Shown here in pieces: positions 1,480 through 51,524 of a DNA stretch of 64,000 nucleotides. The DNA comes from Marinobacter similis (GTDB lineage: Bacteria; Pseudomonadota; Gammaproteobacteria; Pseudomonadales; Oleiphilaceae). Positions within the stretch are counted from its first letter, which is position 1. Every line of letters starts with the position of its first letter. A program made the translations under genes and the position numbers. Below the pieces are notes generated by a model that saw only the letters and a program-made list of their open reading frames with translations, was not told the DNA's origin and made no database searches. The stretch is taken from NCBI RefSeq assembly GCF_000830985.1, contig NZ_CP007151.1, positions 1,364,001 through 1,428,000 of the forward strand, given 5' to 3'.

Positions 1480-1701
1480 GAGTTCACGCCACTGTTGAGA
1501 GTCACGGTGGGGTTCCTGAAGTGATGCGGTGGACAGTTGAGCGATGTGTTACTTGCCCGCAGCGTCACGGAAAAGCCGTGAATGGTATTTTTATGGTAAT
1601 CGTTACATAACATTAAGATAGCAAGCCCGTTACAAAAAGCGAACGTTCAACGAGTTAACAATCTTTGACAAATGTCTGCGGGCGATTTTTTGAGAATTCT
1701 A

Positions 1702-2736
1702 TCACGGAAACAGATTGAGGGGCGTCTTGCCTTCCCGTCCGGGAACCTCTCGTACCAGCTTCGGTACCAGAAATCCCGGTAGCCGGCCAAGCAGATCCCG
1801 GACCAGTCCCCGGGCCTCGTTGTCAGAGACATCGTAATGATGCGCCCCCTCGACCGGATCGAAGGCGTGCAGGTAATACGGCAGTACCCCGGCGTCAAAT
1901 AGCGACTCACTGAGTGTTTCCAGAACATCGACGTTGTCGTTGACACCGCGCAGGATAACGCTCTGATTCAACAACGTAACGCCGGCACCGCGCAATTGTT
2001 CCAGAGCGGTGCGCGTGGCCGAATCAATCTCGGCCGGGTGGTTAATGTGCAGCACCATCACAACCTGGAGCCGTGTATTTTTCAGCCAGGTAAGCAGTGG
2101 CTCGCAGACGCGCTCGGGAATCACCACCGGAAGGCGAGTGTGCAGGCGCAGGCGCTTGAGATGAGGAATAGCCCCGAGCTCGTGTGCCCATTGCGCAAGT
2201 AGCTTATCGTTGACCGCCAGGGGGTCGCCGCCGCTGAGAATCACTTCGTTGATTTCCGGGCTCGCCGCCAGGGTCTCTATAATATGCTGCCGGTCCTGAG
2301 GCTCAGGCGCTGATCCTCGTATGGAAAGTGGCGCCGGAAACAGTAGCGGCAATTTACCGCACATTGACCAGTCACCATCAGCAGGGCACGGCTGCGGTAT
2401 TTGCGGATCAGGCCGGTAGTCTGGATGGCGACGTCTTCTTCCAGGGGATCGCGAACGAACCCCGGAACCCGCAGAGCCTCCTGGCTCACCGGCAAGACCT
2501 GTCTCAGTAATGGGTCATCGGGGTCGCCCTTGCGCATTCGCGCCAGGAACGGCTCCGGAACTCACCGGGAACAGTTTATGCCCGGCCTGGGCACCCCGGA
2601 GCCAGCGCTCGGGCGACAGCCCCAGCCTTGCCAGCAGTTCCTCCGGGCAGGTGATCGACCCAGAGAGCTGTTGCTGCCAGCTGCGACGGTCCTCAACAAG
2701 GTGGGCTTCTATACGGGTGGGGGTTCGCTGTATCAT
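1702..2736 (-). CDS. epmB: EF-P beta-lysylation radical SAM protein (lysine 2,3-aminomutase-like), two frame breaks
   Basis: EpmB converts (S)-alpha-lysine to (R)-beta-lysine, which EpmA then attaches to elongation factor P. The radical SAM cluster motif [15 protein letters not shown] is intact, followed by [22 protein letters not shown] and [13 protein letters not shown], all closely matching E. coli EpmB. The restored length is about 345 residues, normal for the family. The frame breaks near 2560 (between KLFPV and VPEPF, needing two bases or two single losses) and near 2300 (after YEDQRLS). Start ATG at 2736 is only 45 bp from the divergently read efp, which is the partner substrate, and epmA follows efp. 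The three genes together make a complete EpmA/EpmB modification pathway; epmC is not seen. Confidence 0.92.
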
Positions 2737-2781
2737 AGCGACCTTCGAATTTTTAACTGCATTTTGTCAGGTGAACATTTC

Positions 2782-3357
2782 ATGGCTTCATATTCTACCA
2801 ACGAATTCCGCGGCGGTCTTAAGGTTTTGCTCGATGGCGACCCTTGTATCATGCTTGAAAACGAGTTCGTCAAGCCGGGGAAAGGTCAGGCCTTTAACCG
2901 CGTAAGACTGCGGAATCTCATGACCAACCGGGTCTGGGATCGCACGTTCAAGTCGGGTGAGAGCCTCGAAGCCGCTGACGTGATCGATCAGGACATGGAA
3001 TACCTGTACACCGACGGTGAATTCTGGCACTTCATGCTCACTGATGGCTCCTTCGAGCAGTACCCGGCAGACGCCAAGGCGGTCGGTGATACCGTGAAGT
3101 GGCTGAAAGAGCAGGACGTGTACACGGTTACCTTATATAACGGCGCGCCTCTGACGGTTACGCCGCCGAACTTCGTCGAGCTGGAAGTGGTCGACACCGA
3201 TCCCGGCATGAAAGGGGACACCGCCCAGGGTGGCTCCAAGCCTGCAACCCTGTCGACCGGTGCAGTGGTCAACGTTCCGCTGTTTATCACCATTGGCGAA
3301 GTGCTGAAGGTCGATACCCGGTCGGGTGACTACGTTAGCCGCGTTAAAGGCGGCTGA
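2782..3357 (+). CDS. efp: Translation elongation factor P
   Basis: EF-P binds ribosomes stalled at polyproline stretches and promotes peptide bond formation. The 191-residue protein starts [12 protein letters not shown] and carries the modification loop with lysine in [10 protein letters not shown], the residue expected to receive beta-lysine from EpmA/EpmB, both of which flank this gene. KOW-like N-domain and two OB domains fit the normal length. The start ATG at 2782 is preferred over a much longer upstream open frame because family members start here. It is intact, unlike its neighbour epmB. epmA follows after 7 bp and is probably cotranscribed. Confidence 0.97.
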
Positions 3358-3364
3358 GTCCGGA

Positions 3365-4333
3365 ATGACTGAAGAATCTGCCTGGCGGCCCTCTGCCTCG
3401 CCGGCAGCCCTGAAAAGCCGTGCACAACAATTGGCGTTTGTGCGCGGCTTTTTTGCTGAACGAGAGGTCCTGGAGGTGGAAACGCCCGTGCTGGCGCAGC
3501 ATGGCGTGACCGACGTGAACCTTGATGGCGTCGCGGCCGATGTGTCCGCGGCAGGGCGCCATGGAGGTTGGCTTCAGACCTCTCCCGAATACCACATGAA
3601 GCGTCTGCTCGCGGCGGGATCAGGTTCGATCTATCAGATTTCCAAAGTATTCCGTAACGGTGAGTGCGGACGGCGGCACAACCCCGAATTTTCCATGCTG
3701 GAGTGGTATCGGGTCGGCTACGACGACACAGCATTGATGGCCGACGTGGCGGACCTGGTATGTGGCTGGCTGGGCTGTGCCCGGCCAGTGCAGGTGTCCT
3801 ACCGGGATGCCATGCTGGCCTGGGCCAAGGTGGATCCGTTTGAAATCAGCGATCAGGATTTGCGCCTGTGCTGCGAGCAATGGCTGGAGCCGGGCCAGAT
3901 CGCGGAGCTGGATCGCGACGGGTGTCTGGACCTGCTAATGAGCTTTTCGGTAGAGCCGAATCTTGGCCGGGATACCCCGGAGTTCGTCGTCGGCTATCCC
4001 GCTTCCCAGGCGGCCCTGGCGCGAGTCTCAGAGGTGGATGGCCATCCGGTGGCGCACCGCTTCGAGCTGTATATCGATGGCCTGGAGCTGTGCAACGGCT
4101 ATTGGGAGTTGGCTGATGCCAGCGAACAGCGCCGTCGCTTTGAGGCCGATAATCGGCTCCGGCGGCAGTCGGGCAAGCCCGACATGGCGCTGGATGAGTC
4201 TTTTCTTGATGCGGTCGAGGCCGGATTGCCCGACTGCGCCGGGGTAGCGCTCGGGCTGGATCGGTTGCTGATGCTCAAGGTGGGCGCCCGGGATATCGCC
4301 GAGGTGCTGGCCTTTCCTTTCGAGCGTGCCTAG
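3365..4333 (+). CDS. epmA: EF-P--(R)-beta-lysine ligase
   Basis: EpmA (GenX/PoxA/YjeA) is a class II lysyl-tRNA synthetase paralogue without an anticodon-binding domain that attaches beta-lysine to EF-P. The 322-residue product has the class II motifs: motif 2 around VFRNGECGRRHNPEFSMLEW and motif 3 GVALGLDRLLML. The start ATG at 3365 sits 7 bp after the efp stop; an in-frame upstream ATG at 3326 lies inside efp and is less likely. It ends 14 bp from the convergent psd stop. The gene is intact. Confidence 0.95.
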   Translation: MTEESAWRPSASPAALKSRAQQLAFVRGFFAEREVLEVETPVLAQHGVTDVNLDGVAADVSAAGRHGGWLQTSPEYHMKRLLAAGSGSIYQISKVFRNGECGRRHNPEFSMLEWYRVGYDDTALMADVADLVCGWLGCARPVQVSYRDAMLAWAKVDPFEISDQDLRLCCEQWLEPGQIAELDRDGCLDLLMSFSVEPNLGRDTPEFVVGYPASQAALARVSEVDGHPVAHRFELYIDGLELCNGYWELADASEQRRRFEADNRLRRQSGKPDMALDESFLDAVEAGLPDCAGVALGLDRLLMLKVGARDIAEVLAFPFERA

Positions 4334-4347
4334 GCCGTAAGCCTTAT

Positions 4348-5201
4348 TTAAACCAGAGTGCCGAAGGACTCGCCCATGCGCACCGTTTTGCCGGCTACCT
4401 GATCGTTGTTCCAGGTGGCCGCGCCCTTGGGCATGACCATGACCACGGTGGAGCCCAGGCGAAAGCGGCCCATTTCCTCGCCCTTGGCGAACGCTCGTGC
4501 CTCGTCGCCTTCGTAGCGGGTGGTTGTGACCTCGCCACTGCCTGGCGCAACAACGCCAGACCACACAGTCTCAACGCTTCCGACGATCATAGCGCCAACC
4601 AATACCAGGGCCATAGGCCCGGCTTCGGTGTCGAATATGCAGGCCACCCGTTCGTTACGGGCAAACAGGTTTGGAACGTTTTCGGCCGTAACCGGATTGA
4701 CGGAGAACAGCTTGCCCGGAATGTACACCATTTCTCGCAAAGTGCCTGCCAGGGGCATGTGAATCCGGTGATAGTCCTTGGGCGACAGGTAGATGGTCGA
4801 GAATTCGCCGTCTGCAAAGGTGTTGGCCCACTGCGGATCGCCGCCAAGCAGTTCAGTCAGACTGAAGGACTGACCTTTCGCCTGAAACACCCGATCATTG
4901 CTTACCTGACCCAGTTGACTGATGGCACCATCAACCGGGCTGACCAGAGTTTTCTCGCCTTCGGCAATGGGGCGTAAACCGGGCTTGAGGGCGCGGGTAA
5001 AAACGCATTGAAGCTGGGGTAGGCGGTTGGGTCGGATTCGGCGGCTTCGCTCATGTTTACGCCATAGCGGCCGATAAACCATTTGATGACGCGGTTCTTG
5101 AGCGCAGGGTTACTGTCGTGGTCCGCCAGGCGACCAGCGAAGCGGGAAACCATTAGTTGGGGCGTGACGTACTGACTCAGGACAAACAGCTTGCTTAGCA
5201 T
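4348..5201 (-). CDS. psd: Phosphatidylserine decarboxylase proenzyme, one frame break
   Basis: Psd makes phosphatidylethanolamine from phosphatidylserine at the inner membrane. It is made as a proenzyme that self-cleaves at an LGST site, here RFRLGSTVVMVMP near the C-terminus, leaving a pyruvoyl-bearing alpha subunit. The N-terminal start MLSKLFVLSQYVTPQ at 5201 and the conserved VSPVDGAISQLG and SPKDYHRIHMP motifs are present. The frame breaks near 5008 in a run of T between SFNAF and FTRALKPGL; one additional T restores 284 residues, the expected length. Placement next to epmA matches the E. coli neighbourhood, where epmA and psd are also close. Confidence 0.94.
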
Positions 5202-5340
5202 TGAAAAGTAACCCTTTGAGCGCAAAGGCGCGCATTCTACCAAAGTCTGGCCTGTGTATAGAAATTGTTTCCTGGCTTCTCGGGTGGAGTGAAGGCTTGC
5301 TATGATCGGAGCCCAAAACAGAGCGGGTGCCTTAGCGTCC

Positions 5341-5348
5341 GCCGATAA
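5341..5348 (+). promoter_or_regulatory. Possible sigma-28 (FliA) -10 element upstream of motA
   Basis: GCCGATAA, the exact FliA -10 consensus, lies 28 bp before the motA start. No TAAA -35 is found at the usual 15-bp spacing, so this is half a promoter. Flagellar stator genes are commonly FliA-dependent, which is why it is listed. Confidence 0.35.
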
Positions 5349-5375
5349 CCAGTAACCAAGGCGTACAATCTTCCC

Positions 5376-6226
5376 ATGTTATTGATCATTGGTGCAGTGG
5401 TCGTCCTCGCAAGCGTGCTCAGTGGCTACGTATTGCACGGCGGTAACCTTATGGTGCTCTGGCAGCCCACAGAGGTTCTGATCATCTTCGGCGCGGCCAT
5501 TGGTGCGTTCGTCATCGCCAACCCGATGCACACGGTCAAGGAAGTGTTTCGGGGCATCCTGCGTCAGTTGACGGGGTCGCCGTTCAATAAAGCCTTCTAC
5601 ATGGACCTGCTGAGCCTGCTTTATGAGATCTTCGATAAATCTCGCAAGCAAGGTGTTATGGCCATTGAAGAGGATATCGATAACCCGGAAGCCAGCCAGA
5701 TCTTCAGCCGCTATCCGGCCATTCTGAAGTCTAAGGAATTGCTCGCTTTTATTACCGACTACCTCCGTATCATCAGCTCCGGCAACATGGCGACTCACGA
5801 ACTGGAAGGCATGATGGAAAACGAGATTGATAGCCGTCAGCATGAGTTGGAGGAGCCTCTCACGCGGTGAACAAGGTTGCCGACGCGCTTCCCGGCCTGG
5901 GTATCGTGGCTGCAGTATTGGGGATCGTGATTACGATGAACTTCCTGTCCGAGGGGCCAGAACGCATCGGACTCAGTGTTGCGGCGGCGTTGGTGGGTAC
6001 TTTTCTCGGAATTTTTATGGGCTATGGCTTTGTTGGGCCGCTTTCCATCGCTATGGAACATTCTGCCCGTTACGAACTCAAGGCCTACGACTGCATCAAG
6101 TCTTCCATTGTTGCCACCCTCTCGGGCCAGGCGCCGCAGATGGCGATCGAGTTTGGTCGCAAGGCCTTGCCCACCGACAAGCGGCCCGGGTTCCAGGAAT
6201 TGAACGATCACGTTCGGTCCAAATGA
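5376..6226 (+). CDS. motA: Flagellar motor stator protein MotA, one frame break
   Basis: MotA forms, with MotB, the proton-conducting stator that drives the flagellar rotor. The N-terminal half has the first two membrane segments (residues about 1-50, starting MLLIIGAVVVLASVLSGYV) and the cytoplasmic loop. The second half has the remaining two segments, with the family motif VADALPGLGIVAAVLGIV and ALVGTFLGIFMGYGF. The frame breaks near 5848 between HELEEP and SHAVNKVAD; one missing base restores 283 residues, the normal length of the E. coli-like type. motB follows after 32 bp, so the two form an operon. Confidence 0.94.
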
Positions 6227-6258
6227 CCCATAGCCATATTCTGATCCGGAGCTGAGGC

Positions 6259-7218
6259 GTGGACCAACAACCGATCATCATCAAACGCAAAAAGGTCGTC
6301 GCCGCCGGTCACCACGGTGGCTCGTGGAAAGTGGCGTTTGCCGATTTTGCCACCGCCATGATGGCGTTCTTCCTGGTGCTCTGGCTGACAGCCACGGCGT
6401 CACCCGAGCAGATCAAGGCGGTTGAGGGCTATTTCCGGGATCCGGTCGGTTTTACCGATGGTGGTTCGCCCAACCCGGTGGATCTGGGGGGCAGTGCCTC
6501 AGTAGTCAATGAAGCCAGTCCGGACGAGGCCACCAGTCAGATTCAGATTAAGGATGAGACGGTGGATGAGTTGTCCGAGACGCTGGAGCAGCGTCGCATG
6601 GAGGAGCTGTTTCAGGAGCTGAAAGATCGTATCGAGCAGAATCAGACGCTTCAGGAGTTCAAGGATCAGTTGCTGATCGACATCACCGACGAGGGCTTGC
6701 GCATCCAGATCGTCGATCGCTCCGGCCGGCCCATGTTCGACAGCGGTCGCGCCGAGCTGAAGTACTATTCCCAGGACATCCTGTTTGAGCTTGCCAAGAC
6801 CCTTGGCTCAGTGGATAACAAGCTCAGCCTGACCGGGCACACCGATGCCACGCCGTTCAAAGGACGGCCCGGCTATACCAACTGGGAGCTGTCAGCAGAC
6901 CGCGCCAATACCGCTCGCCGGGCACTGGTCGCCGGTGGTGTCGGCGAGGAACAGATTGGCCGGGTGGTTGGCTTGAGCGATTCGGTGTTGTTCGAGAAGA
7001 GCGATCCGACCGCGCCGGTCAACCGCCGGATCTCGATCATCGTGCTGAACAAGCGCACCGCCCAGGGCATTCAGGACAGTGCCGGCCAGGGCGACGAGCC
7101 GTTAATCGACCTGACCAAGCCAACCGAAGAAGAAAAGCAGGAGGCCATGGGCCGGCTGGAGAGTGGCGAATGGCTGGAGGAAAAGCCGGAGCCAGAACCC
7201 GGTGAGCTGAACTGGTAA
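6259..7218 (+). CDS. motB: Flagellar motor protein MotB
   Basis: MotB anchors the stator to peptidoglycan and carries the proton-binding aspartate. A single N-terminal membrane segment contains it (FADFATAMMAFFLVLWL, Asp near residue 30), followed by a plug/linker region and a C-terminal OmpA-like peptidoglycan-binding domain (LSLTGHTDATPF, NWELSADRANTARRAL, NRRISIIVL). The start is a GTG at 6259 preceded by GAGGC. The 319-residue product is intact, with an acidic C-terminal tail of low complexity (KPEPEPGEL). Confidence 0.95.
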   Translation: MDQQPIIIKRKKVVAAGHHGGSWKVAFADFATAMMAFFLVLWLTATASPEQIKAVEGYFRDPVGFTDGGSPNPVDLGGSASVVNEASPDEATSQIQIKDETVDELSETLEQRRMEELFQELKDRIEQNQTLQEFKDQLLIDITDEGLRIQIVDRSGRPMFDSGRAELKYYSQDILFELAKTLGSVDNKLSLTGHTDATPFKGRPGYTNWELSADRANTARRALVAGGVGEEQIGRVVGLSDSVLFEKSDPTAPVNRRISIIVLNKRTAQGIQDSAGQGDEPLIDLTKPTEEEKQEAMGRLESGEWLEEKPEPEPGELNW

Positions 7219-7236
7219 GGCCCGCAGCCTCCAGGC

Positions 7237-8290
7237 TCAGTCCAGTTTGAGGCCCCGAGCCTGCTGTTCCGCCATATCGAGCAGAATTCGGTGAAAGCTT
7301 CTCCGGCGTTCCGGACTGATCCGGCCCGCCTCTGCTGCGGCGTCGATGGCGCATCCGGGATCGCCCATGTGGCGGCAGTTCCGGAATTTGCAGTGACCAA
7401 TCTCATCCCGAATCTCACGAAACCCGTACTCGATCTCCTGTGTTGTCATGTGCCACAGGCCAAACTCCCGGATGCCCGGGGAGTCAATCAGGTCGCCGCC
7501 AATGGGTAGATGGAACAGCCGGGCGGTGGTGGTGGTGTGCACACCTTTGCCGGTGCTCTCGGACACCGCGCCAACGCGGATGGCTTCGTCCGGCATCAGA
7601 GTCTGGATAATCGATGACTTGCCAACCCCCGATTGACCCACGAATACGCTGGTCTGGTTTTTTACCAGGGCCTCAACTTCCGGCGCCGGCCGATCACCGG
7701 ATTCCGCCGCTGAAGTGCGGACCACTTGATAGCCCAGGGCCTCGTAGCGCGCCAGCATCGCATCGATGTGATCCCGGTTGCGGTCGGTAATGAGGTCAGT
7801 CTTGTTGAGCAGGATGATCGCCGGAATGTCGGTGATTTCAGACGCCACCAGGTACCGGTCGATCAGGTTGTCGTGGGGTTCCGGCTCCGAGGCCAACACC
7901 AGGATGATGTGATCAATATTGGCGGCCACTGGCTTCAGGGCGCCGAAATTGTCGGGGCGCTGGAGCAGATTCTGGCGCTCACAGCGGGCAACGATGACCC
8001 CGGATTCATTGCGCCCCGGGCGCCAGATGACTTTGTCACCGGTAACCAGGCTATCGATGTTGGCGCGCACGAAGCAGCGAATCACCTTGCCGACGTGCTC
8101 GCCCTCCAGGCCCTCAACATCCAGCTGCTGGCCATAGTGGGCGATGATCAGCTTCCTGTTCCTGGCCCAGTTCGCCGGCATCGGCCTGTTCCTGAACCAC
8201 TTTCTCCTTCCGTGCGGCGCGCGCGGCGCGCTCCTCCTGGACTTTTTTGATTCGGAATTGCTGCTGCTTGTTCAGTCGCCGTTTTGCCAT
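7237..8290 (-). CDS. rsgA: Ribosome small subunit-dependent GTPase A, frame break near N-terminus
   Basis: RsgA is a circularly permuted GTPase that checks late 30S subunit maturation. The visible order is an N-terminal basic tail, an OB fold, then G4 (NKTDLI), G1 (GQSGVGKSSII) and G3 (DSPGIREF), and a C-terminal zinc finger (CKFRNCRHMGDPGC). The first open stretch from ATG 8290 gives MAKRRLNKQQQFRIKK, typical for this family; the frame breaks near 8150, before LIIAHYGQQLDVEG. The break needs two lost bases or one gained, for example GGCC read as GC. Restored length is about 351 residues. It is convergent with motB. Confidence 0.93.
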
Positions 8291-8407
8291 TAAGGATCAG
8301 TTGCCAGTAATCGGTGGAGTGAGGTGTTACATCATACGTTAATCGGCCACAATACACAGGGGATGTCCCAACTCCACCACCAAGACACTGAAGGTTAGGA
8401 ACTGATA

Positions 8408-8949
8408 ATGGCAGAAGGCGATCGCTTAGTTTGGATTGATCTGGAGATGACCGGGCTGGATCCGGAAAAGGAACGGATCATCGAAATGGCCACCATCATC
8501 ACCGATTCGGAGCTGAATGTTGTGGCAGAGGGCCCGGTCATTGCCGTGCATCAGCCGACAGCCTGCTGGATGCGATGGATGAATGGTGCACCAACACCCA
8601 CGGTGCCAGTGGCCTGACCAAGCGCGTCAAGGAAAGCACCATTGACGAGGCCCAGGCCGAGCAGCAAACGCTGGAATTTCTGCAGCAACACCTGGAAGCG
8701 GGCAAGTCACCCCTGTGTGGCAACAGCATCGGCCAGGATCGCCGGTTTCTGGTGAAGTACATGCCCCGTCTGGAAGAGTTTTTCCACTACCGCAATCTGG
8801 ATGTCTCTACCGTCAAGGAGCTGGCGCGACGCTGGCGACCTGATGTACTGGCGGGCGTGAAGAAGCAGGGCAGTCACCTGGCCCTGGACGATATCCGCGA
8901 CTCCATCAGCGAGCTGCGCCACTACCGGGATACCTTCTTCAAGTTATAG
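8408..8949 (+). CDS. orn: Oligoribonuclease, one frame break
   Basis: Orn degrades 2-5 nt RNAs and linear pGpG, the end product of cyclic di-GMP turnover, and is essential in many gammaproteobacteria. The DEDD exonuclease motifs are present: [10 protein letters not shown] (motif I), the Exo II stretch around [12 protein letters not shown] and the C-terminal [14 protein letters not shown]. The frame breaks near 8556 between AVHQP and [10 protein letters not shown]; one missing base restores 180 residues. The ATG at 8408 follows a GGAAC box. Its stop overlaps the convergent queG stop by 6 bp. Confidence 0.94.
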
Positions 8950-10023
8950 GCCGTGCTGCTTCAAGGCCCACTGCACGTGCTCGCGGACCATGTCATCCGG
9001 ATGGTCCGCGCGCTGTTTCAAAGCCTCAATGACCGGGATGGTTGAGGGCGCATTGCCAAGCCCAACGGCCAGATTCCGGAGCCAGCCACTATAGCCTGTC
9101 CGGCGGATGGCTGAGCCTTCGGTCCGTTTCAGGAACTGCTCTTCGGTCCACAGAAACAACTCGGCCAGGGAGCTGTTGTCCAACCCGTGCCGGGGCTGGA
9201 AATCATCCTCCCCGGTCGGTTTGCTGAACTTCTGCCACGGACAGACCAGCTGGCAGTCGTCGCAACCAAAGACCCGGTTGCCCATCAACGGTCTCAGCTC
9301 TTCCGGAATGCTGCCGCGCAATTCAATGGTGAGGTAGCTGATGCAGCGCCGGGCATCGAGCTGGTGCGGGCCGACGAAGGCATCGGTCGGGCAGAGGTCG
9401 AGGCAGGCCGTGCAGCTGCCGCAGTGGTCGGTTTCGAACGGGGCATCCACCGGCAGCGGTGCACTGGTGAAAATCTCGCCCAGAAAGAAAAACGAGCCCG
9501 CTTTCGGGTGAATCAGCATGTTGTTCTTGCCGATCCAGCCCAGGCCTGCGCGCTGGGCGAGTGCCCGCTCCAGAACCGGGGCGCTGTCCACAAAGGCGCG
9601 ATACTCGTAACCGCTGAGCGCCTCGTCGATCCTGTTTGCCAGGGTTGCCAGCCGCTTCCGGATCAGCTTGTGATAGTCGCGGCCAAGGGCGTAGCGGGTA
9701 ACATAGGCGCCTTCCCGGTTAGTAAGCGCTTCTTTCGGGCTGTCCGGGGAAGGCAGGTAGTCCATGCGCACCGAGATTACCCGGGCCGTGCCAGGCACAA
9801 GCGAGCGTGGCGTGTAGCGCTTGTCGCCGTGATAGCCCATGTACTCCATTTCGCCGTGGTAGCCTTCTGCTAGCCAGTCCTGCAGATGTTGGCCGTGTTC
9901 GCCAGTATCGGGGAGGGTGATGCCCAGATCGGCAAACCCGAGTTCCCGGGCCCAGCCCCGGATGCGGGTGACCAGGTCGGAAAAATCCTCGGTGGTGCTT
10001 GGTTGGTCAGATGCTGCGCTCAT
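8944..10023 (-). CDS. queG: Epoxyqueuosine reductase
   Basis: QueG carries out the last step of queuosine synthesis in tRNA, reducing epoxyqueuosine with cobalamin and two [4Fe-4S] clusters. The 359-residue protein has the N-terminal cobalamin-binding domain and the two ferredoxin-like motifs [12 protein letters not shown] and [10 protein letters not shown], then a C-terminal HEAT-like tail. It is intact. Adjacency to orn and nnr matches the E. coli orn-queG-nnr order, although queG and nnr diverge here. Confidence 0.94.
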
Positions 10024-10172
10024 GGGGCCTGCTGCGACGTCGGCAACTCATTGAAAATCAGAATGCCAAACTTTAATTTGATTAAGTTATGACCTTTTTG
10101 CCCGTTTTGCTATGCTTTACAGGTATCTGGCCAATTTTCTTAAACCGGTTTCTGTAACGGGAGCAAAGGCTT

Positions 10173-11273
10173 ATGCCGCCGTCCCAGGTGGGCAGTTTAC
10201 CAGACACACTGTTTTCCGCCGATGCTGTGCGGGAGATTGACCGCTATGTGATTGAGCAGCAGGGCGTGGACGGGTTCGAATTGATGCAGCGCGCGGCCCA
10301 TTCGGCGTTTCGGCGGCTGGTTCGGCAGTGGCCGGAAGCGGGGTCGATCCTGGTGCTCTGTGGCGCTGGCAATAACGGCGGAGACGGCTATCTGGTGGCC
10401 GCCAATGCGGCGCGTCACGGTATGGGCGTGCAGTGCGTTGCGGTGGCACCCACAAAGAAACTGACCGGAGATGCCCGTAAAGCCTGGCGGAAGGCCGTCG
10501 CTGATGGGGTTGAGGTGCAGGAATTCGCAACCTTGACCGCGGAATCGCGGGAGGCCCTGTTCAGTGAAGCTGATGTGTTGGTTGATGCCATGCTGGGTAC
10601 CGGCGTGTCCGGCGCTCCCAGGGAGCCCTTCGCCGGCCTGATTGCCCAGTGCAATCATGGATCGGCGCCGATTCTCGCCATCGACCTGCCGTCAGGGTTG
10701 AATGCGACCACCGGCGCCACCGAAGGCGACGTGGTGCGGGCTGATCTGACGGTGACCTTCATTGGTCTGAAAAGCGGACTGTTCACCGGGCAGGGTTCTG
10801 CAGTGTGCGGCACGGTTGTGTTCGAATCACTGGATACGGAAACGGGCGTCAGCCGGAGCGGGCAGAGGCCGCTGGCATGCCGTCTGGACTGGCCTTCGAC
10901 CATGTCCTGGTTACCCAGGCGGCCGGCCAATGCCCACAAGGGGCGCTTTGGGCATGTTCTGGTGGTGGCCGGCGAGCGAGGTTTTGGTGGCGCGGCTGAT
11001 GCCCTCCAGCTGGCCCTGGCCCTGCAACAGGTTTGCGCGCGCCCGCTCCAGAGCATCCAGGTGCCGGCGCCGGGCCAGGAAGCCGCCTTCGGTAGTGCTG
11101 GCAAAGCCCATGCATTGCTTGAGGTGATCCCGCAGCACTTCCAGGCCGTCGGAGGATTTCGCCGCCAGCCGGATCACCGGCGCAGTACCGCTGTCGGTAT
11201 CGGTGAAGCCCACGGCTTCCGAGGACAGATCCACCTTGTTCCGCACCACGGTAACCGGGGCATTGGCCGGTAA
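10173..11273 (+). CDS. nnr: NAD(P)HX epimerase/dehydratase, truncated at a chimeric junction
   Basis: Nnr (YjeF) repairs hydrated NAD(P)H: an N-terminal epimerase domain and a C-terminal ADP-dependent dehydratase. The epimerase domain is complete ([41 protein letters not shown]). The dehydratase domain begins normally ([20 protein letters not shown]) but homology stops at GERGFGGAA, near 10997. Beyond this the open frame continues only because it reads the antisense of mnmE up to 11273. About 230 residues of the dehydratase domain are therefore missing. The start ATG at 10173 follows GGGAGC. The truncation is seen directly; whether it is biological or an assembly artefact cannot be told from this sequence. 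Confidence 0.85.
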
Positions 11274-12242
11274 GCGGTCGATAAAATCCGGCCAGATCTC
11301 GTGGGGTTCGGTCTGCTCGGTGGTGGTGGCGTCCACCATCAGCAGGATCCGGTCGGCCTGGGAAATTTCATCCCAGGCCCGGGCAATACCGATCTGTTCG
11401 ACCTCGTCCGGGCTGTCTCGCAGGCCAGCGGTGTCGATGATGTGCAGCGGCATGCCATCGATGTGGATATGTTCCCGGAGCACGTCCCGGGTGGTGCCTT
11501 CAATGGCGGTAACAATGGCCGCCTCGCGCCCGGCGAGGGCGTTGAGCAGGCTCGACTTGCCGGCGTTGGGGCGGCCGGCGATCACCACCTTCATGCCATC
11601 CCGCAAAATGGTGCCTTGCTGAGCCTCGCCGAGAATGGTCTCCAACCGTTCGAGCAGCTGCTGCAGATCGCCGGCAACCTTGCCGTCAGCCAGGAAATCG
11701 ATTTCTTCCTCGGGAAAATCGATGGCCGCTTCGACGTAGATGCGCAGGTGGGTTACCGCATCCACCAGATCGTCGACACGGCGGGAGAACACCCCCTGCA
11801 TGGAGCGCACGGCACAGCGGGCGGCCTGCTCCGAACTGCTTTCGATGAGATCGGCGATGGCTTCGGCCTGGGCCAGATCCAGCTTGTCATTCAGAAATGC
11901 CCGCTCGGAAAACTCCCCCGGTCGCGCCAATCGGGCGCCGCGGCTACAAACTTCCCGCAGCAGCAGATCGAGGATAACCGTGCCGCCATGGCCCTGGAGT
12001 TCAAACACATCTTCACCAGTGAACGAATGCGGGTTGGGGAAGAACAACCCGATACCTTCATCGATCAGGCCGCCATTCTGGTCCAGGAAGGGGCCGTAAT
12101 GGGCGTACCGTGGCTTGGGGATAAAACCCAGCATCTGGCGGGCAATGTCCGCGGCAGCCGGCCCCGACACACGGACAATTCCCACACCGGCCTGGCCGGG
12201 GGCAGTGGCAATGGCGGCAATTGTGTCTGCTGTCTGGCTCAT
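10911..12242 (-). CDS. mnmE: tRNA modification GTPase MnmE, C-terminus lost at the junction with nnr
   Basis: MnmE with MnmG installs the cmnm5 group on wobble uridine 34 of several tRNAs. The tetrahydrofolate-binding N-domain, and the G domain with [14 protein letters not shown] (G1), [14 protein letters not shown] (G3) and NKVDL (G4), are intact. Family homology ends at [10 protein letters not shown], about 11001; the reading frame then runs through antisense nnr to a chance stop at 10911. The last 45 or so residues, including the catalytic Cys of the CxGK end motif, are absent. Start ATG 12242 ([16 protein letters not shown]) is preferred over an in-frame ATG at 12278 that lies in the upstream hairpin. 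A protein built this way should be inactive in modification. Confidence 0.88.
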
Positions 12243-12266
12243 GAATATTCCTTCGGGCACAAACAA

Positions 12267-12291
12267 CAGAGGCTCCATGAAGGAGCCTCTG
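12267..12291 (-). terminator. Hairpin between yidC and mnmE
   Basis: A perfect 10-bp inverted repeat (CAGAGGCTCC / GGAGCCTCTG) with a 5-base loop lies between the yidC stop and the mnmE start. The following T tract on the minus strand is weak (TTGTTTG), so it may be a leaky terminator or an RNA processing/attenuation site rather than a strong stop. Confidence 0.55.
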
Positions 12292-12315
12292 TCTGGGTCG
12301 GGTCAAAAATACCGA

Positions 12316-14019
12316 TCAGTACTTTTTACCAGCCGTCTCTGCTTCAATCTTGCGGGTAATGTACCACTGCTGACTGATCGACAGAATATTGTTCACCAGC
12401 CAGTACAGTACCAGACCGGCCGGGAACCAGAGGAAGAATACCGTGAAGATCAGCGGCATCATCTTCATGATCTTGGCCTGCATTGGATCCGGTGGTGTCG
12501 GGTTCAGATGCATCTGCAGAAACATGCTCGCGCCCATCAGAATTGGCAGAATGAAGTACGGATCCATCTGGGACAAATCCTGAATCCAGAGCATGAACGG
12601 GGCATGACGCAACTGCACGCTCTCGAACAGTACCCAGTACAGGGAGATAAACACTGGCATCTGCACCAGGATCGGCAAGCAGCCGCCCAGCGGATTGATC
12701 TTTTCACGCTTGTACAGTGCCATCATTTCCTGGGACATGCGCTGTCGGTCGTCGCCGTACAGTTCTTTCAGGCGCGTCAATTGCGGCGCCACCGCACGCA
12801 TCTTGGCCATGGACTTGTAACTGGTGGCCGAGAGGTGGAAGAACACCCCCTTGACCAGCACGGTCAACAGGATGATGGCAACACCCCAGTTGCCTACCAG
12901 GCCGTAAAACCACTCGAGGATGATAAACAACGGCAGGGAAATGAAGAACAGGAAGCCGAAATCGACGGTGCGGTCCAGGTTCGGTGCTACATTTTCGAGC
13001 CGATCAATGATCTTCGGGCCAATGTAGGCGCGTGCGCCCACTTCCACAGTGTCTCCAGCAGCCACGGTGGTGGCCGGATAAACAAAGCCCATCACGTACA
13101 GGGGGCCTCGGCGTGTGGTCTGGAACTGAGCCGGTTGATCAGGCTCCGGTACCCAGGCTGTCAGGAAGTAGTGCTGCAGGAAGGCCAACCAACCATTGGT
13201 AACCGACTGATTTATAGGAGTTTCTGAAAGGTCACCGAAATCGAACTTCTCGTACGGATCTTCCGAGGAACTCATCACCATGCCCAGAAATGCCTGAATA
13301 CCCATGCTGTTCTGAGCGGTCGGATCGGGCGCCTGGTCCCGGACGATTTTACCGGTGAAGTTGGCTTTCCAGGCTTCATTAGACTGGTTGTCGATCAGGT
13401 AGCGCACGCCGATTTCATAGCTGTTACGCTCAAATTGATAGCGCTTGGTGATCTTGACGCCGTCGCTGGTGGTGTAGGTCAGGTCAACGGTCAGCTGGTC
13501 CTGGCCATCAGACAACTCATAGCTGTCAGCGTTGGATTGATACACCGGCGCGCTGCCATTGGCGCGGCTATCCGGCCCATTGCGACCAATCAAGCCACTT
13601 TCCATGACGTAGGTGCGGCTGTTGGTATTGGTCAGCAGCTTCAGTGGTTCCTGGCTGTTCAGGGACTTGTCGTAATCGGTCAGCGAGCTGTGGATAAGAT
13701 TGCCACTGACCCGATCAATGGTGAGCTCGAAAACATCAGTGCGAACGGTAACAAACTGGTCTTCAACGGTGATGTCGGAATCCGTCGCGGTGGCGATCTG
13801 CTCTCCGCTCTCCGGCGTGCTGAACTCCTCACTGGTGCCAGTGCTCTGGTTCTGCTCAGGAAGCACCATGCTGTCTTCGCCGCCGGTGGTTGAACCAGTG
13901 TTGGTCTGGGCCACCTGTTCGGTTTGCGGCTGCTGATGGTAATCCTCATTCCAGGCAAGCACCATCAGATAACTGACAATAGCCAGGCCGGCAAATAATA
14001 CGATGCGTTGAATATCCAT
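12316..14019 (-). CDS. yidC: Membrane protein insertase YidC
   Basis: YidC inserts and folds inner-membrane proteins alone or with SecYEG. The 567-residue protein has an N-terminal membrane anchor (residues about 5-22), a large periplasmic beta domain preceded by a Ser/Thr/Glu-rich linker, then the conserved C-terminal five-helix insertase core with FYGLVGNWGVAIILLTV, the cytoplasmic loop with SYKSMAKMRAVAPQLTRLKE, and LGGCLPILVQMPVFISLYWV. It is intact and ends in basic residues (AGKKY). It is the fourth gene of the rpmH-rnpA-yidD-yidC set, with 4 bp between the yidD stop and the yidC start. Confidence 0.97.
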   Translation of the reverse strand: MDIQRIVLFAGLAIVSYLMVLAWNEDYHQQPQTEQVAQTNTGSTTGGEDSMVLPEQNQSTGTSEEFSTPESGEQIATATDSDITVEDQFVTVRTDVFELTIDRVSGNLIHSSLTDYDKSLNSQEPLKLLTNTNSRTYVMESGLIGRNGPDSRANGSAPVYQSNADSYELSDGQDQLTVDLTYTTSDGVKITKRYQFERNSYEIGVRYLIDNQSNEAWKANFTGKIVRDQAPDPTAQNSMGIQAFLGMVMSSSEDPYEKFDFGDLSETPINQSVTNGWLAFLQHYFLTAWVPEPDQPAQFQTTRRGPLYVMGFVYPATTVAAGDTVEVGARAYIGPKIIDRLENVAPNLDRTVDFGFLFFISLPLFIILEWFYGLVGNWGVAIILLTVLVKGVFFHLSATSYKSMAKMRAVAPQLTRLKELYGDDRQRMSQEMMALYKREKINPLGGCLPILVQMPVFISLYWVLFESVQLRHAPFMLWIQDLSQMDPYFILPILMGASMFLQMHLNPTPPDPMQAKIMKMMPLIFTVFFLWFPAGLVLYWLVNNILSISQQWYITRKIEAETAGKKY

Positions 14020-14023
14020 AGAG

Positions 14024-14316
14024 TTACTGTCTGGTCTGGGTTGTAGTGTGGGAGTGCTCAGCCTGAAGGCAGGGTGTTACGGCCTTGCTGGAATCGGATT
14101 GTGCCATACCCGGTACTGGATCATAACCACCCTCGGCCCAGGGATGACATCGTAATAACCGACGAGTAGCGAGAATCAGTCCTTTCAACGCACCGTGATG
14201 GTTGATCGCTTCAACGGCGTATTGTGAACAGGTTGGATAATGGCGGCAATGACTAGCATCATGGGACTGAGGGCGTACTGGTAGAAACGGATAGGAACAA
14301 GCAGAAGTTTACGCAT
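14024..14316 (-). CDS. yidD: Membrane protein insertion efficiency factor YidD, one frame break
   Basis: YidD is a small membrane-associated protein that assists YidC-dependent insertion. The start [18 protein letters not shown] overlaps the rnpA stop (TGATG), and the family signature [15 protein letters not shown] and [13 protein letters not shown] appear in the next frame. The break is near 14247, after SPMM, and one missing base gives a 97-residue protein. The gene overlaps rnpA and is followed at once by yidC, as in most proteobacteria. Confidence 0.88.
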
Positions 14317-14722
14317 CAACCCGATCCTTTGCCGGCTGGTTGTGCTGATGGAGCGTTCGCAGGTAGCGACTGCTGGTGTTTCCGTTTTAGTCGACGCCAC
14401 AAATCGTTGAGCGCGGCCGTTACCGTTGGGGTTTCCAGTTTGGCGAGTCCCTGGCGACCGAGTACGACAATATCCAGCCCTGGATAATCAGTCTGGTGCC
14501 GAAAGGTCTCCCGAACCTGTCGCTTGATCCTGTTTCTCTGGACCGCGAGTTTCAGATTTTTCTTGGAAAAAATCAAACCGATCCTGGCGTGTCCGAGATT
14601 ATTCGGTGTAGCAGGATCAGAAAATTCCTGTGCGGAACTTTCAGCTGAACGTCATCGAAGACTTTGCCGTAATCAGCCGGTCTGAGCAGACGGTGCGATT
14701 TCGGGAAACTCAAAGCCTTCAT
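14316..14722 (-). CDS. rnpA: Ribonuclease P protein component, one frame break
   Basis: RnpA is the basic protein subunit of RNase P, which matures tRNA 5' ends. The start MKALSFPKSHRLLRPADYG lies 12 bp after the rpmH stop. The RNR motif region LAVQRNRIKRQVRETFR is intact. The frame breaks near 14612 between NFLIL and TPNNLGHARIG; one missing base in CTGGCT restores about 135 residues with a Gln/Ala/Pro-rich tail. RNase P is essential, so the break is unlikely to be real. Confidence 0.92.
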
Positions 14723-14734
14723 GAGGCGCGCTGG

Positions 14735-14869
14735 TTACGCTGACAGACGTGCGCGGCCTTTGGCACGACGACGGGAAATAACCTTGCGACCGTTGGCAGT
14801 GGCCATACGGGCACGGAAACCGTGTACGCGCTTACGCTTCAGGACGCTTGGTTGAAACGTTCTCTTCAT
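14735..14869 (-). CDS. rpmH: 50S ribosomal protein L34
   Basis: The 44-residue protein [20 protein letters not shown]... matches bacterial L34 over its full length, with the highly basic C-terminus [12 protein letters not shown]. The ATG at 14869 is chosen because L34 always starts MKRTFQPS; a longer in-frame upstream extension is spurious. It faces oriC and starts the rpmH-rnpA-yidD-yidC operon. Confidence 0.98.
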
Positions 14870-14942
14870 GGTGATGATCTCACAATTCGTAAGTTGAAAA
14901 TTCGTATGTGGCTGGAAAATGTACAGCCAAAACAGGAGCGGC

Positions 14943-14971
14943 ATGATATGCAAATGCGGGGGAAAGTTCAA
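14943..14971 (-). promoter_or_regulatory. Sigma-70 promoter for rpmH operon
   Basis: On the minus strand TTGAAC (14966-14971) and TATCAT (14943-14948) are separated by exactly 17 bp, 74 bp upstream of the rpmH start. It is a good match to the sigma-70 consensus in the expected place. Confidence 0.65.
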
Positions 14972-15029
14972 TGGGTATCGATAAGTGGTTTTCACAGGTG
15001 CTCATTGGCCGGACTAACCTGAACAGATC

Positions 15030-15345
15030 TAGACCAGATAATAAAATCTATAGGTTCTTTTAGATTTCTCTTTAAGGATTAATTATTACTGTTATTACTG
15101 AGGCCGTTTTCTGTGGATAAGCAAAGAAAATGCATCTAAGCCAGTAAGTTACGGAGATGATAAGGGGGCTTACAAATACCGATAAGCCCTGTGGACAGTG
15201 GCACTACGAATTGTGCATAAGTGACTTCGGGTGATCACATCCTAGTTATCCACCGTTCGGTCCTAGGGTTTCACACAGGGTTGAAGGCAGGGTATGCACA
15301 AGGGGGTGTGGATAACAGTTTTTGAAAGAATTTTCTGTACACAAG
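15030..15345. other. oriC: Chromosomal replication origin oriC
   Basis: The 658-bp gene-free stretch 14870-15527 between rpmH and dnaA holds a cluster of DnaA boxes. Perfect TTATNCACA matches lie at 15112-15120, 15212-15220 and 15307-15315, all on the minus strand. Matches with one mismatch are TTATCCACC at 15246-15254 and GTATGCACA at 15292-15300. A strongly AT-rich segment at about 15037-15100, on the rpmH side, is the likely unwinding element. Position between rpmH and dnaA is the same as in Pseudomonas. The remainder of the stretch holds the rpmH and dnaA promoters. Confidence 0.9.
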
Positions 15346-15423
15346 GCTGTAGGTAAGTCTGGAACTAATTGATAAGTTTATTCTTTTATTTCCACAGCCT
15401 GTTCATGAAATAGTCGGCGGTCT

Positions 15424-15451
15424 TTCACTGGTGGGCCCATCGGGTTAGAAT
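15424..15451 (+). promoter_or_regulatory. Possible dnaA promoter
   Basis: TTCACT (15424-15429) and TAGAAT (15446-15451) with 16-bp spacing lie 77 bp upstream of the dnaA GTG. The perfect DnaA box at 15307-15315 is about 110 bp further upstream, which would allow autoregulation. Confidence 0.4.
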
Positions 15452-15527
15452 CTCGCGTTATCTCTTTGGATTGGATGTCTCGCAATTCTGATCTGAGACA
15501 TTTCTGGGTTATCAGGAGCAGGCTGTC

Positions 15528-16991
15528 GTGCCGAACACCATGTGGCATCAATGTCTTGAAGTACTCCGGGACGAGTTTCCCGCACAACAGTTCAACACCT
15601 GGCTCAGACCCCTGCAGTCCGATCTCCGGGAGGGGCAGCTGATGTTGTTCGCTCCAAACCGGTTTGTTATGGACTGGGTTAATGAGAAATACCTTCGACG
15701 TATAGAAGAAGTGTTGAAGGATTTGAACGGGGGCCAGGCTCCCCGCGTAAACATGAAGGTAGGCTCTGCGCCCCGGAACAGTGAGCCGGTAAGTCGGTCC
15801 GAGGTTTCGGTTCGGTCCAGTGGTGCTGTGCAGGAAGAAAGCGGCAGCAGGGTCACCGAAGAAGAGAAAGGTGTCGCGGTCAGTGCCGGTGACAATACTT
15901 CGGTGCGCGCGAAACCAAGTAACCCAAGTTACGAGCGTCGGCCGGTTCAGGTCGAGGGTGACATCAAGCATCAGAGCTTCCTGAACGAAGGCTTCACCTT
16001 CGATACTTTTGTAGAGGGTAAGTCGAACCAGTTGGCCCGGGCGGCCTCGATGCAGGTTGCGGAGAATCCGGGTGGAGCTTATAACCCGCTGTTCCTCTAC
16101 GGCGGCGTGGGCCTGGGTAAAACTCACCTGATGCACGCTATCGGTAATGAGATTGTACGGCGCAAACCCGGGGCCAAGGTGGCCTACCTGCGCTCGGAAC
16201 GGTTTGTGGCGGATATGGTAAAGGCGCTGCAATTGAACGCGATCAACGAGTTCAAGCGCTATTACCGGTCGGTGGACGCGCTACTGATCGATGATATTCA
16301 GTTTTTTGCCCGCAAGGAGCGCTCCCAGGAAGAGTTTTTCCACACCTTCAATGCCTTGCTTGAAGGCGGACAGCAGGTCATCGTTACCTGTGATCGCTTT
16401 CCCAAGGAAATTGTCGACATGGAAGAGCGTTTGAAGTCCCGGTTTGGTTGGGGCCTGACGGTGATGGTGGAACCACCGGAATTGGAAACCCGGGTCGCCA
16501 TCCTGATGAAGAAAGCGGATCAGGCGAACGTAAAACTCAGTAGTGAAGCGGCCTTTTTTATTGCCCAAAAGATCCGATCAAACGTGCGCGAGCTTGAAGG
16601 TGCACTGCGTTTGGTGATAGCGAATGCTCACTTCACAGGATCTGAGATTACCCCGCCGTTTATCCGGGAAAGTCTGAAAGATCTGTTGGCCCTGCACGAG
16701 AAGCAGGTCAGCATCGATAATATTCAGCGTACTGTGGCCGAGTATTACAAGATCAAAGTGGCCGATCTGCTGTCCAAGCGTCGGACCCGGACGGTGACCC
16801 GGCCACGCCAGGTGGCGATGTCGCTGTCCAAGGAATTGACCAATCACAGTCTGCCGGAAATTGGTGACGCTTTCGGTGGCCGTGACCACACCACCGTGCT
16901 GCACGCGTGCAAGAAAATCGTGGAACTGCAGGAGACTGATCCGGGTATCCGCGAGGATTATCAGAACTTTATGAGATTGCTGACCACCTGA
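15528..16991 (+). CDS. dnaA: Chromosomal replication initiator DnaA
   Basis: DnaA binds the boxes in oriC and opens the origin. The 487-residue protein has domain I (about 1-85, [20 protein letters not shown]), a variable linker, the AAA+ domain with Walker [14 protein letters not shown] near residue 192 and Walker [11 protein letters not shown], and the C-terminal DNA-binding domain with the signature [15 protein letters not shown]. The start is GTG at 15528, preceded by CAGGAGCAGG. It is intact. dnaN follows after 55 bp. Confidence 0.98.
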
Positions 16992-17046
16992 TGCCGGGCG
17001 TTAGCGCGAAACATTCACCCTTCAACATAAAAGAATGCTGAGTGCC

Positions 17047-18150
17047 ATGAAACTGACGATCAGCCGTGAATCCCTGCTCACCCCGCTGCAAAGCATTGCT
17101 GGCGTGGTGGAAAAGAAACAGACCATGCCGGTGTTGTCGAATGTTCTGCTGGTAGCCGAAGATAATACTCTGACGCTGACCGGCACGAATATGGAAGTGG
17201 AACTGGTGGCCCGTGTTACTCCGGTACACGTGGACCAGCCCGGCCGGATTACCGTGCCCGCCCGAAAGCTGGCCGACATCTGTCGGGCGCTGGGTGAAGA
17301 AGCGCCTCTGGAGCTTGGGCTGGAAGGTGACCGTTTGCACCTACGCTGTGGAAAAAGTCACTTTACCCTGTCGACACTGCCGGCGGAGCATTTCCCGAAT
17401 GTCGAAGACGAAGCCGAAAGCTTCCGTCTGGAGCTGCCCCAGAAAGAACTGGAGCGGATGTTCGATGCCACGGCGTTCGCCATGGCCCAGCAGGATGTCC
17501 GTTATTACCTGAACGGCCTGTTGCTGGAAGTGGATCAGGGCCATGTCCGTACTGTCGCTACCGACGGACATCGGTTGGCCATGGCGCACCTGGAGTTACC
17601 CACAGGTTGTCCGGAACTGCGGCAGGTGATCGTGCCCCGAAAGGGTGTGCTGGAACTGGCACGGCTGTTGGATGATGTAGAAACACCGGTGACACTGGTG
17701 ATTGGTGATAACCATCTGCGGGCCACCGTCGGTGCCTACACCTTTACCTCGAAACTGATTGAGGGCAAGTTCCCGGACTACAACCGAGTTATCCCCAGGG
17801 GTGGCGACAAAGTAGTCCTGGCCGATCGGGCGACCTTGAAGAACACCCTTCAGCGTGCCGGCATCCTGTCTCACGAAAATATTCGCGGCGTACGGCTGAA
17901 TCTGGCGCCGAACGAGTTGGAGGTGTTTGCCAATAACCCGGACCAGGAACAAGCGGAAGATGCCTTGCCGGTGGAGTATCAGGGTGAGTCCCTGCAGATC
18001 GGGTTCAATGTTGGTTATCTGGTGGATGTGATGAACGCACTGGATGATGATCAGGTGAAGATCACTTTGTCCAATCCGAACAGCAGCGCTTTGATTGAGT
18101 CCCAGATGGACAATCGTTGCCTGTACGTTGTTATGCCGATGCGGCTATAG
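17047..18150 (+). CDS. dnaN: DNA polymerase III beta subunit (sliding clamp)
   Basis: The clamp tethers polymerase III to DNA. The 367-residue protein has three clamp domains and ends with the family's typical YVVMPMRL. MKLTISRESLLTPLQ at 17047 is the family start; the ATG 12 bp upstream is less likely. It is intact and lies between dnaA and the kinase-like gene. Confidence 0.98.
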   Translation: MKLTISRESLLTPLQSIAGVVEKKQTMPVLSNVLLVAEDNTLTLTGTNMEVELVARVTPVHVDQPGRITVPARKLADICRALGEEAPLELGLEGDRLHLRCGKSHFTLSTLPAEHFPNVEDEAESFRLELPQKELERMFDATAFAMAQQDVRYYLNGLLLEVDQGHVRTVATDGHRLAMAHLELPTGCPELRQVIVPRKGVLELARLLDDVETPVTLVIGDNHLRATVGAYTFTSKLIEGKFPDYNRVIPRGGDKVVLADRATLKNTLQRAGILSHENIRGVRLNLAPNELEVFANNPDQEQAEDALPVEYQGESLQIGFNVGYLVDVMNALDDDQVKITLSNPNSSALIESQMDNRCLYVVMPMRL

Positions 18151-18160
18151 GAGTATCACC

Positions 18161-19431
18161 ATGGGCACCGTGACGAACGGAATCAAGGGCGCCTTCAGGA
18201 TTGGACAAACCCTGTCCGTGCTGGGGCGTACCGGTGTCAATTGGGTTCGGGGCGATCGCCCCCTACCCCGCGTCTGTTACGGCAGACCTTCGAATCCCTG
18301 GGCGCGACCTACATCAAGCTGGGTCAGTTCATTGCCAGCTCCCCCACCTTCTTCCCGAAGGAGTATGTGGAGGAATTCCAGTACTGTCTGGATAAAACCC
18401 CCAACCTGCCCTTCGGTGTGATCAAAAAGATTATCAGTGACGAACTGGACCGGCCGCTTGACCAGGTGTACGCGGATATTGATCCGGTGGCACTGGCGTC
18501 CGCCTCCATTGCCCAGGTCCACGCGGCACGGCTAGTAACAGGTGAGGATGTCGTGATCAAGGTGCAGAAGCCGGGTGTGGAAAACATCCTGCTGACGGAT
18601 CTGAATTTCCTGTACCTGTCGGCGCGCATTCTGGAGACACTGGCGCCGAAACTGTCCTGGACCTCGTTGTCCGGGATTGTCGAGGAAATTCAGCGCACCA
18701 TGATGGAGGAATGTGACTTCATCAAGGAAGCGAATAACCTGAAGGTGTTTCGCAATTTCCTGAACGATACTCACAACGAGGACGCCACGGTACCGCTGGT
18801 GTATGAACAGTGCAGCACCCGCCGGGTACTGACCATGGAGCGTTTCCATGGCGTACCTTTAACGGACCTGGAAAGCATCCGGGGTTACGCACGGGACCCG
18901 GAGCGGACCCTGATCACGGCGATGAACACCTGGTTTGCCAGCCTGACCCAGTGTGAGTTTTTCCACGCGGACGTTCACGCCGGTAACCTGATGGTGCTTA
19001 AGGACGGTCGGGTCGGCTTTATCGACTTCGGCATTGTCGGGCGGATCAAGCCGGACACCTGGCAGGCGGTCAGTGATTTCATTTCCTCGGTAATGGTGGG
19101 TAACTTCGAAGGCATGGCCGACGCCATGATTCGCATCGGGGTAACACACCAGACCGTACTGGTGGATGAATTGGCGGCAGACCTGCGCCGGTTGTATCAG
19201 CAGATGGACAAGATGGTGCCGGATCAGGTGCCGTACGAGGCAGATCAGGCCGAAGACGATGTCAACCACATCCTGATGGATATGGTAAAAATCGGCGAGA
19301 GCCATGGCCTGCATTTCCCGCGGGAATTTGCCTTGCTGTTGAAACAGTTCCTCTACTTCGATCGCTACGTTCACATCCTGGCGCCGGAAATGGATGTGTT
19401 CATGGATGAGCGACTGAACATGCTCCATTAA
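18161..19431 (+). CDS. ABC1/UbiB-family atypical kinase, one frame break
   Basis: The protein belongs to the ABC1/AarF/UbiB atypical kinase family. It has the invariant KxGQ motif (YIKLGQFIASSP), the alanine/serine loop ASASIAQVHAA, a nucleotide-binding lysine in VVIKVQKPGV, the catalytic loop FHADVHAGNLM and the metal-binding DFG (FIDFGIVGRI). Unlike UbiB it lacks an evident C-terminal pair of membrane helices, so it may be a paralogue not involved in ubiquinone synthesis; its substrate is unknown. Start ATG 18161 follows TAGGAG and lies 10 bp after dnaN. The frame breaks near 18262 in a C run between VRGDRP and PTPRLLRQ; one additional C restores about 423 residues. Its location between dnaN and recF is unusual. 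Confidence 0.88.
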
Positions 19432-19548
19432 GGCGGTCGCCTTAGCGGGCGGGCTTTTGTACACTAGGGCAGCGTTACACGAGTGGTAATGCTGCTTTTT
19501 TTTGGTCGCTTCAAACTCCCCTCCTCGCCACGTTGAGTTCCCGTTTTT

Positions 19549-20676: not shown

Positions 20677-20751
20677 AGCCGGACCTGCCGGACTTACCAT
20701 CGCCCGAACGGCGAGTAGGCCGGTCACCGGTACACCCTTCAGGAGTCTCGA

Positions 20752-23165
<2,414 letters not shown>

Positions 23166-23184
23166 CGAAGGCCCGGCTCAGGGC

Positions 23185-23227
23185 AAAAAAAAGCGGCGCT
23201 GGATCTCTGATCCGCGCCGCTTTTTTT
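23185..23227. terminator. Bidirectional rho-independent terminator after gyrB
   Basis: A-tract, GCGGCGC stem with GGATC/GATCC inner stem, GCGCCGC and a seven-T tract lie between the convergent gyrB and the next gene. Confidence 0.9.
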
Positions 23228-23247
23228 ATGCCTGTTTCAGCATCCAG

Positions 23248-23997: not shown

Positions 23998-24149
23998 AGA
24001 TCAGCCTGATGCAGGGACCGACAGCAGACCCAGGAATGGGTACTGCCGGATACAAAGTGTTCCGGCAGTATACGACGAATTTAGTGGCTTTCGAAGGCGT
24101 TAAAGCGCCATGTCGGGAGGGTAGGGATTGTGGACAGATCGGGCATAAA

Positions 24150-24187
24150 AAAACCGGACCCGGGTGCTAGGACCCGAGTCCGGTTTT
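24150..24187 (-). terminator. Rho-independent terminator downstream of gabT
   Basis: A 16-bp stem with one mismatch (AAAACCGGACCCGGGT / ACCCGAGTCCGGTTTT) and 6-base loop is followed on the minus strand by a T tract, 38 bp after the gabT stop. The A/T flanks on both sides mean it could also work for the other strand. Confidence 0.85.
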
Positions 24188-24225
24188 GGTTTTGCGTCGG
24201 CGTAATGCCTGTTTGGGCTTAGCCA

Positions 24226-25502: not shown

Positions 25503-25624
25503 TTTGTTTTCTCCCTGAGTTCAGGTTCGAAATGGTTCATCGATCAGTGTAAGGAGTACGAGCACGAACCACAAACCGACCATTGTGGGGTGCTGTGGCA
25601 AATGTCAGGGAAAACGCTTCGGGT

Positions 25625-27403: not shown

Positions 27404-27494
27404 TCAGACACCGGGGTCGGTCGATACCATCCGGTCGGTTCCCTCATCATACGGCCGCGGCCGTCGCTTTGCCCTGTCCAACAAGGAACTTTCT

Positions 27495-38892: not shown

Positions 38893-39087
38893 GGGGGTCC
38901 TTTTACTAAGAAATCCGGTGCTAATGCGGGTTTCAATCCTGAGGGTACAGGTTACCGCATGTGGTCACAGAATCAGACCGCAATAAGAGGATTGGCGTGG
39001 CAGATAAACGTCATGGGGGGATTTGGGCAGGGCGCGAACGCCGGCATTGTGCCGGCGCTGTCGTCAACGGGTTCGGTCAGCGCCGAT

Positions 39088-39378: not shown

Positions 39379-39568
39379 AGGAAATTGACCTCAGGTTTGT
39401 CGCCGTTGTTTAAAAATATACGAGGCCGGTGTGCGAACAGGTCAATAAACGATCAAGAAAGGCGGGTAAATAAGATTGGGAAGGAGGGTGGGTTGAGGCG
39501 AGGCAAAACGGATCTGTGGTGCAGGCAGATGCGTATTGTTTATTACATGAACAATGGAGGGTATCTCG

Positions 39569-51508: not shown

Positions 51509-51524
51509 CCGCAGACGCCATCAC

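Follow-up and report, generated by a model that had tools for sequence, protein, structure and literature searches.

The junction at which nnr and mnmE run into each other in the Marinobacter similis record is, with a probability of about 0.98, a contig boundary in a draft that was deposited as one sequence; it is an assembly artefact, not biology, and has no function. It was encountered in the window, the whole stretch of 64,000 nucleotides analysed here (G000:C1:1364001-1428000, where G000 is the M. similis record). This reading is based on the exact length of the record, the complementary gene halves found elsewhere in it, the overlap and gaps at the cuts, and the gene order of relatives. 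Counted against it were the small share of joins located (only 12 out of 28), an exact 145-bp overlap left unmerged by the assembler and a failed boundary prediction based on the published N50. We infer that the depositors glued the contigs together without Ns. The finding removes a false lead, namely a gene fusion near the replication origin. The type-strain record looks like a closed chromosome and should be treated as a draft, in which calls of synteny, gene loss and gene fusion are unsafe at the joins. The sister record of the same paper (G036) is probably also a glued draft with the same defect.

The nnr frame occupies window positions 10173-11273 on the plus strand and encodes 366 aa. 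In a profile search, its residues 7-275 match positions 11-270 of 510 in the NNR model NF007856, and the model of the dehydratase half, TIGR00196, is matched only at profile positions 9-40 of 277. A functional bifunctional NNR carries the epimerase and dehydratase domains in one frame, and the window frame does not. The mnmE frame (window 10911-12278, minus strand, 455 aa), within which the start codon of mnmE was picked by eye at a stretch of ten protein letters not shown here, is matched by MnmE models to residue 419 (401 of 448) and residue 425 (403 of 446), where the matches stop; it lacks the complete C-terminus with the Cys motif of a functional MnmE. An earlier note on this DNA had placed the end of the nnr match near 10997, had read mnmE as losing its C-terminus at the same site, and had described the genes as abutting directly without an inserted element. 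These readings hold. In alignments to the two closest relatives, G028 and G044, homology to nnr runs up to window 11001 and homology to mnmE takes over at 11002. The window contains no C-terminal Cys motif of MnmE, and neither an N nor a mobile element is seen at the join. The feature coordinates are collected in the following table.

Table. Features of the window and joins placed in the M. similis record (G000).
Feature	Position	Strand	Remarks
End (3') of one proposed glued block	window 1..11001		collinear with G028 2709622-2698609 and G044 C4 178581-189592 (BLASTN)
nnr N-terminal part: epimerase domain and first dehydratase residues	window 10173..11001	+	C-terminal part from G000:3958965
Two bases deleted near 10993 in comparison with both close relatives	window 10990..10998		just before contig end; three-way alignment
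Proposed artificial join of two contigs	window 11001..11002 = G000:C1:1375001/1375002		alignments to G028 and G044 break; record length equals that of the 29-contig draft
Beginning of the next proposed glued block	window 11002..64000		11002-15527 corresponds to G028 3769991-3774518; 44001-64000 to G028 27301-47329
145-bp contig-end overlap	window 11002..11146	-	identical, inverted, to G000:3130889-3131033
mnmE N-terminal part: TrmE_N, GTPase and part of helical domain	window 11002..12242	-	no C-terminus
Own-genome deletions	window 785, 814, 2301, 2560, 4998, 5857, 8151, 8554, 10993, 14256, 14611		
Joins placed near	G000 1375001, 2513737, 2791964, 3130888		
Joins placed near, record tail	G000 3958964, 3962715, 3965792, 3968395, 3970530, 3972442, 3973672, 3974841		

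The gene order of relatives breaks at the same place. Alignments to G028 and G044 break exactly at 11001/11002 (query 831/832), and those to G016, G055 and G036 break within 8 bases of this query position, with resumption at a distant site. The distance between nnr and mnmE is 1.07 Mb in G028, 1.24 Mb in G016, 1.22 Mb in G055 and 0.74 Mb in G036, and the two genes lie on different contigs in G044; the synteny check proposed earlier thus finds them at separate places in all five genomes searched. G028 and G044 share with the window the genes left of nnr and the oriC-side genes right of mnmE, and their nnr N-terminal parts show 97% and 93% protein identity to that of the window. Unlike the window, they carry nnr as a complete 524-aa frame and mnmE at full length, ending in FSSFCIGK, and the two genes are not adjacent. 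The window BLASTN dropped matches shorter than 60 bases, and the comparison with G028 right of the join covered 11002-15527 and 44001-64000. A 600-base query centred on the join matched 122 of 124 genomes of the genus (own included); among the matches listed, no genome but the own one crosses the join, and every other match either stops no later than position 300 or starts no earlier than position 297 of the query. The N-terminal part of nnr is present in 60 of 61 genus genomes (own included), and the open frame reaches at least 514 aa in 58 of the 59 others. The exception is G036 (318 aa), in which two matches in different frames meet at residue 318; this is a frame change, not a glued end.

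The published history of the record agrees with a glued draft. The draft of M. similis A3d10T was described as 29 contigs with a total of 3,975,896 bp under accession CP007151, and that of M. salarius R9SW1T as 99 contigs with 4,616,532 bp under CP007152; both were obtained by Ion PGM sequencing and Newbler 2.8 assembly (PMC4031335). The species description repeats the lengths and contig numbers for both strains (PMC4157798). The record holding the window (completeness 94.86, contamination 5.04) equals the 29-contig sum to the base, yet it is deposited as 1 contig of 3,975,896 bp. No N occurs in the 275,896 bases fetched from it (one overlap counted twice), and of 28 joins to be expected, 12 could be placed. 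As a separate observation, G036 is likewise 1 contig, and its 4,616,532 bp equal the total published for the 99-contig M. salarius R9SW1T draft (PMC4031335).

The missing gene halves lie at the ends of other blocks. The sole match of PF01256, the dehydratase half of nnr, in the record is at 3958967-3959620. Downstream of the nnr C-terminal half at 3.959 Mb come tsaE, amiB and the beginning of mutL, identified by eye in the frames, and the remainder of mutL lies at 2.514 Mb; these neighbours of nnr, earlier reported as missing, are thus absent at the join and present in the genome. In the alignment to G028, nnr breaks off at 2698609 and is taken up again at 2698589, leaving 19 bp missing, and the comparison with G044 shows the same 19 bp. 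G or C accounts for 17 of these 19 bases, and we can only guess that this may have hindered sequencing. For mnmE, window 10171-12278 was searched as DNA against its own genome; besides itself, it matched a 145-bp copy at 100% and, at 1724497, 51 bp inside another GTPase gene at 82%. The second 145-bp copy is 1.756 Mb from the window copy, and at 3.131 Mb these bases run on into the mnmE C-terminus, which ends in FSSFCIGK. The earlier note had proposed that a lack of intact nnr and mnmE elsewhere would show the junction to be real. This argument fails: no second intact copy exists, but the complementary halves do.

The mnmE C-terminal half at G000:3130889 is preceded by a truncated moxR-like gene; moxR and mnmE occupy two separate places in five of five other genomes. 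PF17863 located the cut moxR end at 2791822-2791956, beside a gene recognised by eye as that of ribosomal protein S10; its second match is a complete-looking gene at 111464. With the moxR C-terminal half at 2791964, the alignment to G028 leaves a gap of 36-39 bp between 2446936-2446939 and 2446976. A prediction noted beforehand stated that, if the blocks are glued contigs, the one ending with the moxR C-terminal half would start with the mutL C-terminal half near 2,544,085 on the plus strand; the latter was found at 2,513,738 on the plus strand, 30 kb off, with 28 bp missing relative to G028 and 22 bp relative to G044. To its left lies an unrelated block that maps to G028 624107-632859 and ends at a flank repeated near two other G028 places, probably an rRNA operon. 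The losses at nnr, moxR and mutL, combined with the overlap at mnmE, form the pattern of independent contig ends. To see whether DNA hairpins might have caused the contig ends, 80-base stretches were folded: in G028, the surroundings of the nnr gap had a z value of -1.76 and those of the moxR gap -0.99; the values were 0.81 and 0.36 at the two ends of the mnmE overlap, and 2.02 and -0.23 in a pair of controls.

The tail of the record shows a further regularity. In G028 and G044, the counterparts of its last 16,932 bp (3958965-3975896) are dispersed, which divides the tail into pieces of 3751, 3077, 2603, 2135, 1912, 1230, 1169 and 1055 bp, strictly falling in length (8/8), as a list of contigs ordered by size would be. 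The boundaries were taken from the ends of the G028 and G044 matches, and that between the 2603- and 2135-bp pieces (3968395/6) has no other basis than the point at which a 76% match sets in. The 1230-bp piece is bracketed by its neighbours and contains a transposase frame (recognised by eye), the 1169-bp piece is the lone tuf copy and matches two G028 places at 99%, and the last piece may comprise more than one contig. The 2135-bp piece, in which a multicopper-oxidase-like copper gene was recognised by eye, matches a paralogous place in the same genome at only 76%. The falling length is seen in the tail only: a 338,924-bp stretch (2791965-3130888) comes after a 278,227-bp block, and a size order therefore requires at least one further join inside that stretch. 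The segment at 1715001-1735000 maps whole, inverted, to G028 3412514-3432517; given where the right end of the window maps in G028, this implies a further join or inversion within G000 1428000-1715001. The next large boundary, predicted from the published N50, did not appear: G000 1755001-1835000 is not collinear with G028 360001-480000, the only match being 729 bp at 74% (matches shorter than 150 bases dropped). G000 1-12000 had no match in the BLASTN comparison with the fetched stretches of relatives.

Concatenation of contigs into a pseudo-chromosome without N spacers is a known database artefact. The present record resembles it in its gene-internal joins between blocks that are distant in relatives, in the overlaps and gaps at block ends, in tuf and a transposase occurring once as tiny pieces, and in a length equal to the published sum; here the artefact is recognised from block ends in the record. 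In the proposed sequence of events, the Ion PGM reads would have yielded 29 contigs, one ending inside nnr and another inside mnmE. The contigs would then have been written consecutively, apparently by falling length, in arbitrary orientation and without Ns, and unrelated contig ends would thereby resemble gene fusions. The real chromosome would carry nnr intact beside tsaE, and mnmE intact as well; in all likelihood the living strain has both genes whole.

A real rearrangement, in which one or several inversions severed nnr, mnmE, moxR and mutL and left the halves wrongly paired, is consistent with the clean join without Ns and with the collinearity of both flanks with relatives, but it is extremely improbable. 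At least four conserved genes would have to be broken and their halves scattered over 1.375, 2.514, 2.792, 3.131 and 3.959 Mb, with short stretches lost at three of the cuts and 145 bp duplicated at the remaining one. Moreover, a rearrangement leaves the tail, with its single-copy tuf and eight pieces of falling length, unexplained, and the authors themselves report 29 contigs for a sequence of exactly this length (PMC4031335). The earlier note had left a choice between a real deletion or inversion and a misassembly. The former is not supported, since the missing halves of all four genes occur elsewhere in the record, each at a block end and with a small gap or an exact overlap at the cut; the latter is strongly supported, more exactly as draft contigs glued end to end in the deposited record. 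It is just as improbable that the chromosome of the strain is truly scrambled and that the cell lives on separated halves of these genes.

A join made by the assembler within one of the 29 contigs, through a false overlap of reads, would suit the use of Ion PGM reads and Newbler (PMC4031335) and the many small deletions in the window relative to relatives. However, the continuations of nnr and mnmE share no stretch at the join beyond about one base, leaving nothing to drive a false overlap, and the partner halves themselves lie at block ends, a pattern that recurs at other block ends; the chance that such a chimera explains the join is minimal. A mobile element or repeat was also rejected as its cause, since none was seen and the only repeat is the 145-bp contig overlap.

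In a three-way alignment of window 1-15527 with G028 and G044, the own genome alone shows 11 deletions, each of 1-2 bases, and no insertion (end overhang uncounted); events in one relative only number 1 for G028 and 5 for G044. The Ion platform produces single-base undercalls, and the deletion-only pattern fits them. Several of these deletions split genes, orn among them, and apparent frameshifts and pseudogenes in the window are accordingly to be distrusted. Seven of 19 G044 frames, and four of the nine left of the join, were matched in two frames; this count is rough, as it used stop-to-stop frames chosen by length, some of them antisense, and dropped frames shorter than 90 aa and matches below 75% identity. 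Outside the window, tsaE (G000 ~3959506-3960164) is also read in two frames by eye, probably owing to a base-calling error. The oligoribonuclease gene orn (window 8408-8949) falls into two frames because one base near 8554 that both close relatives have is missing, and this split is probably a sequencing error.
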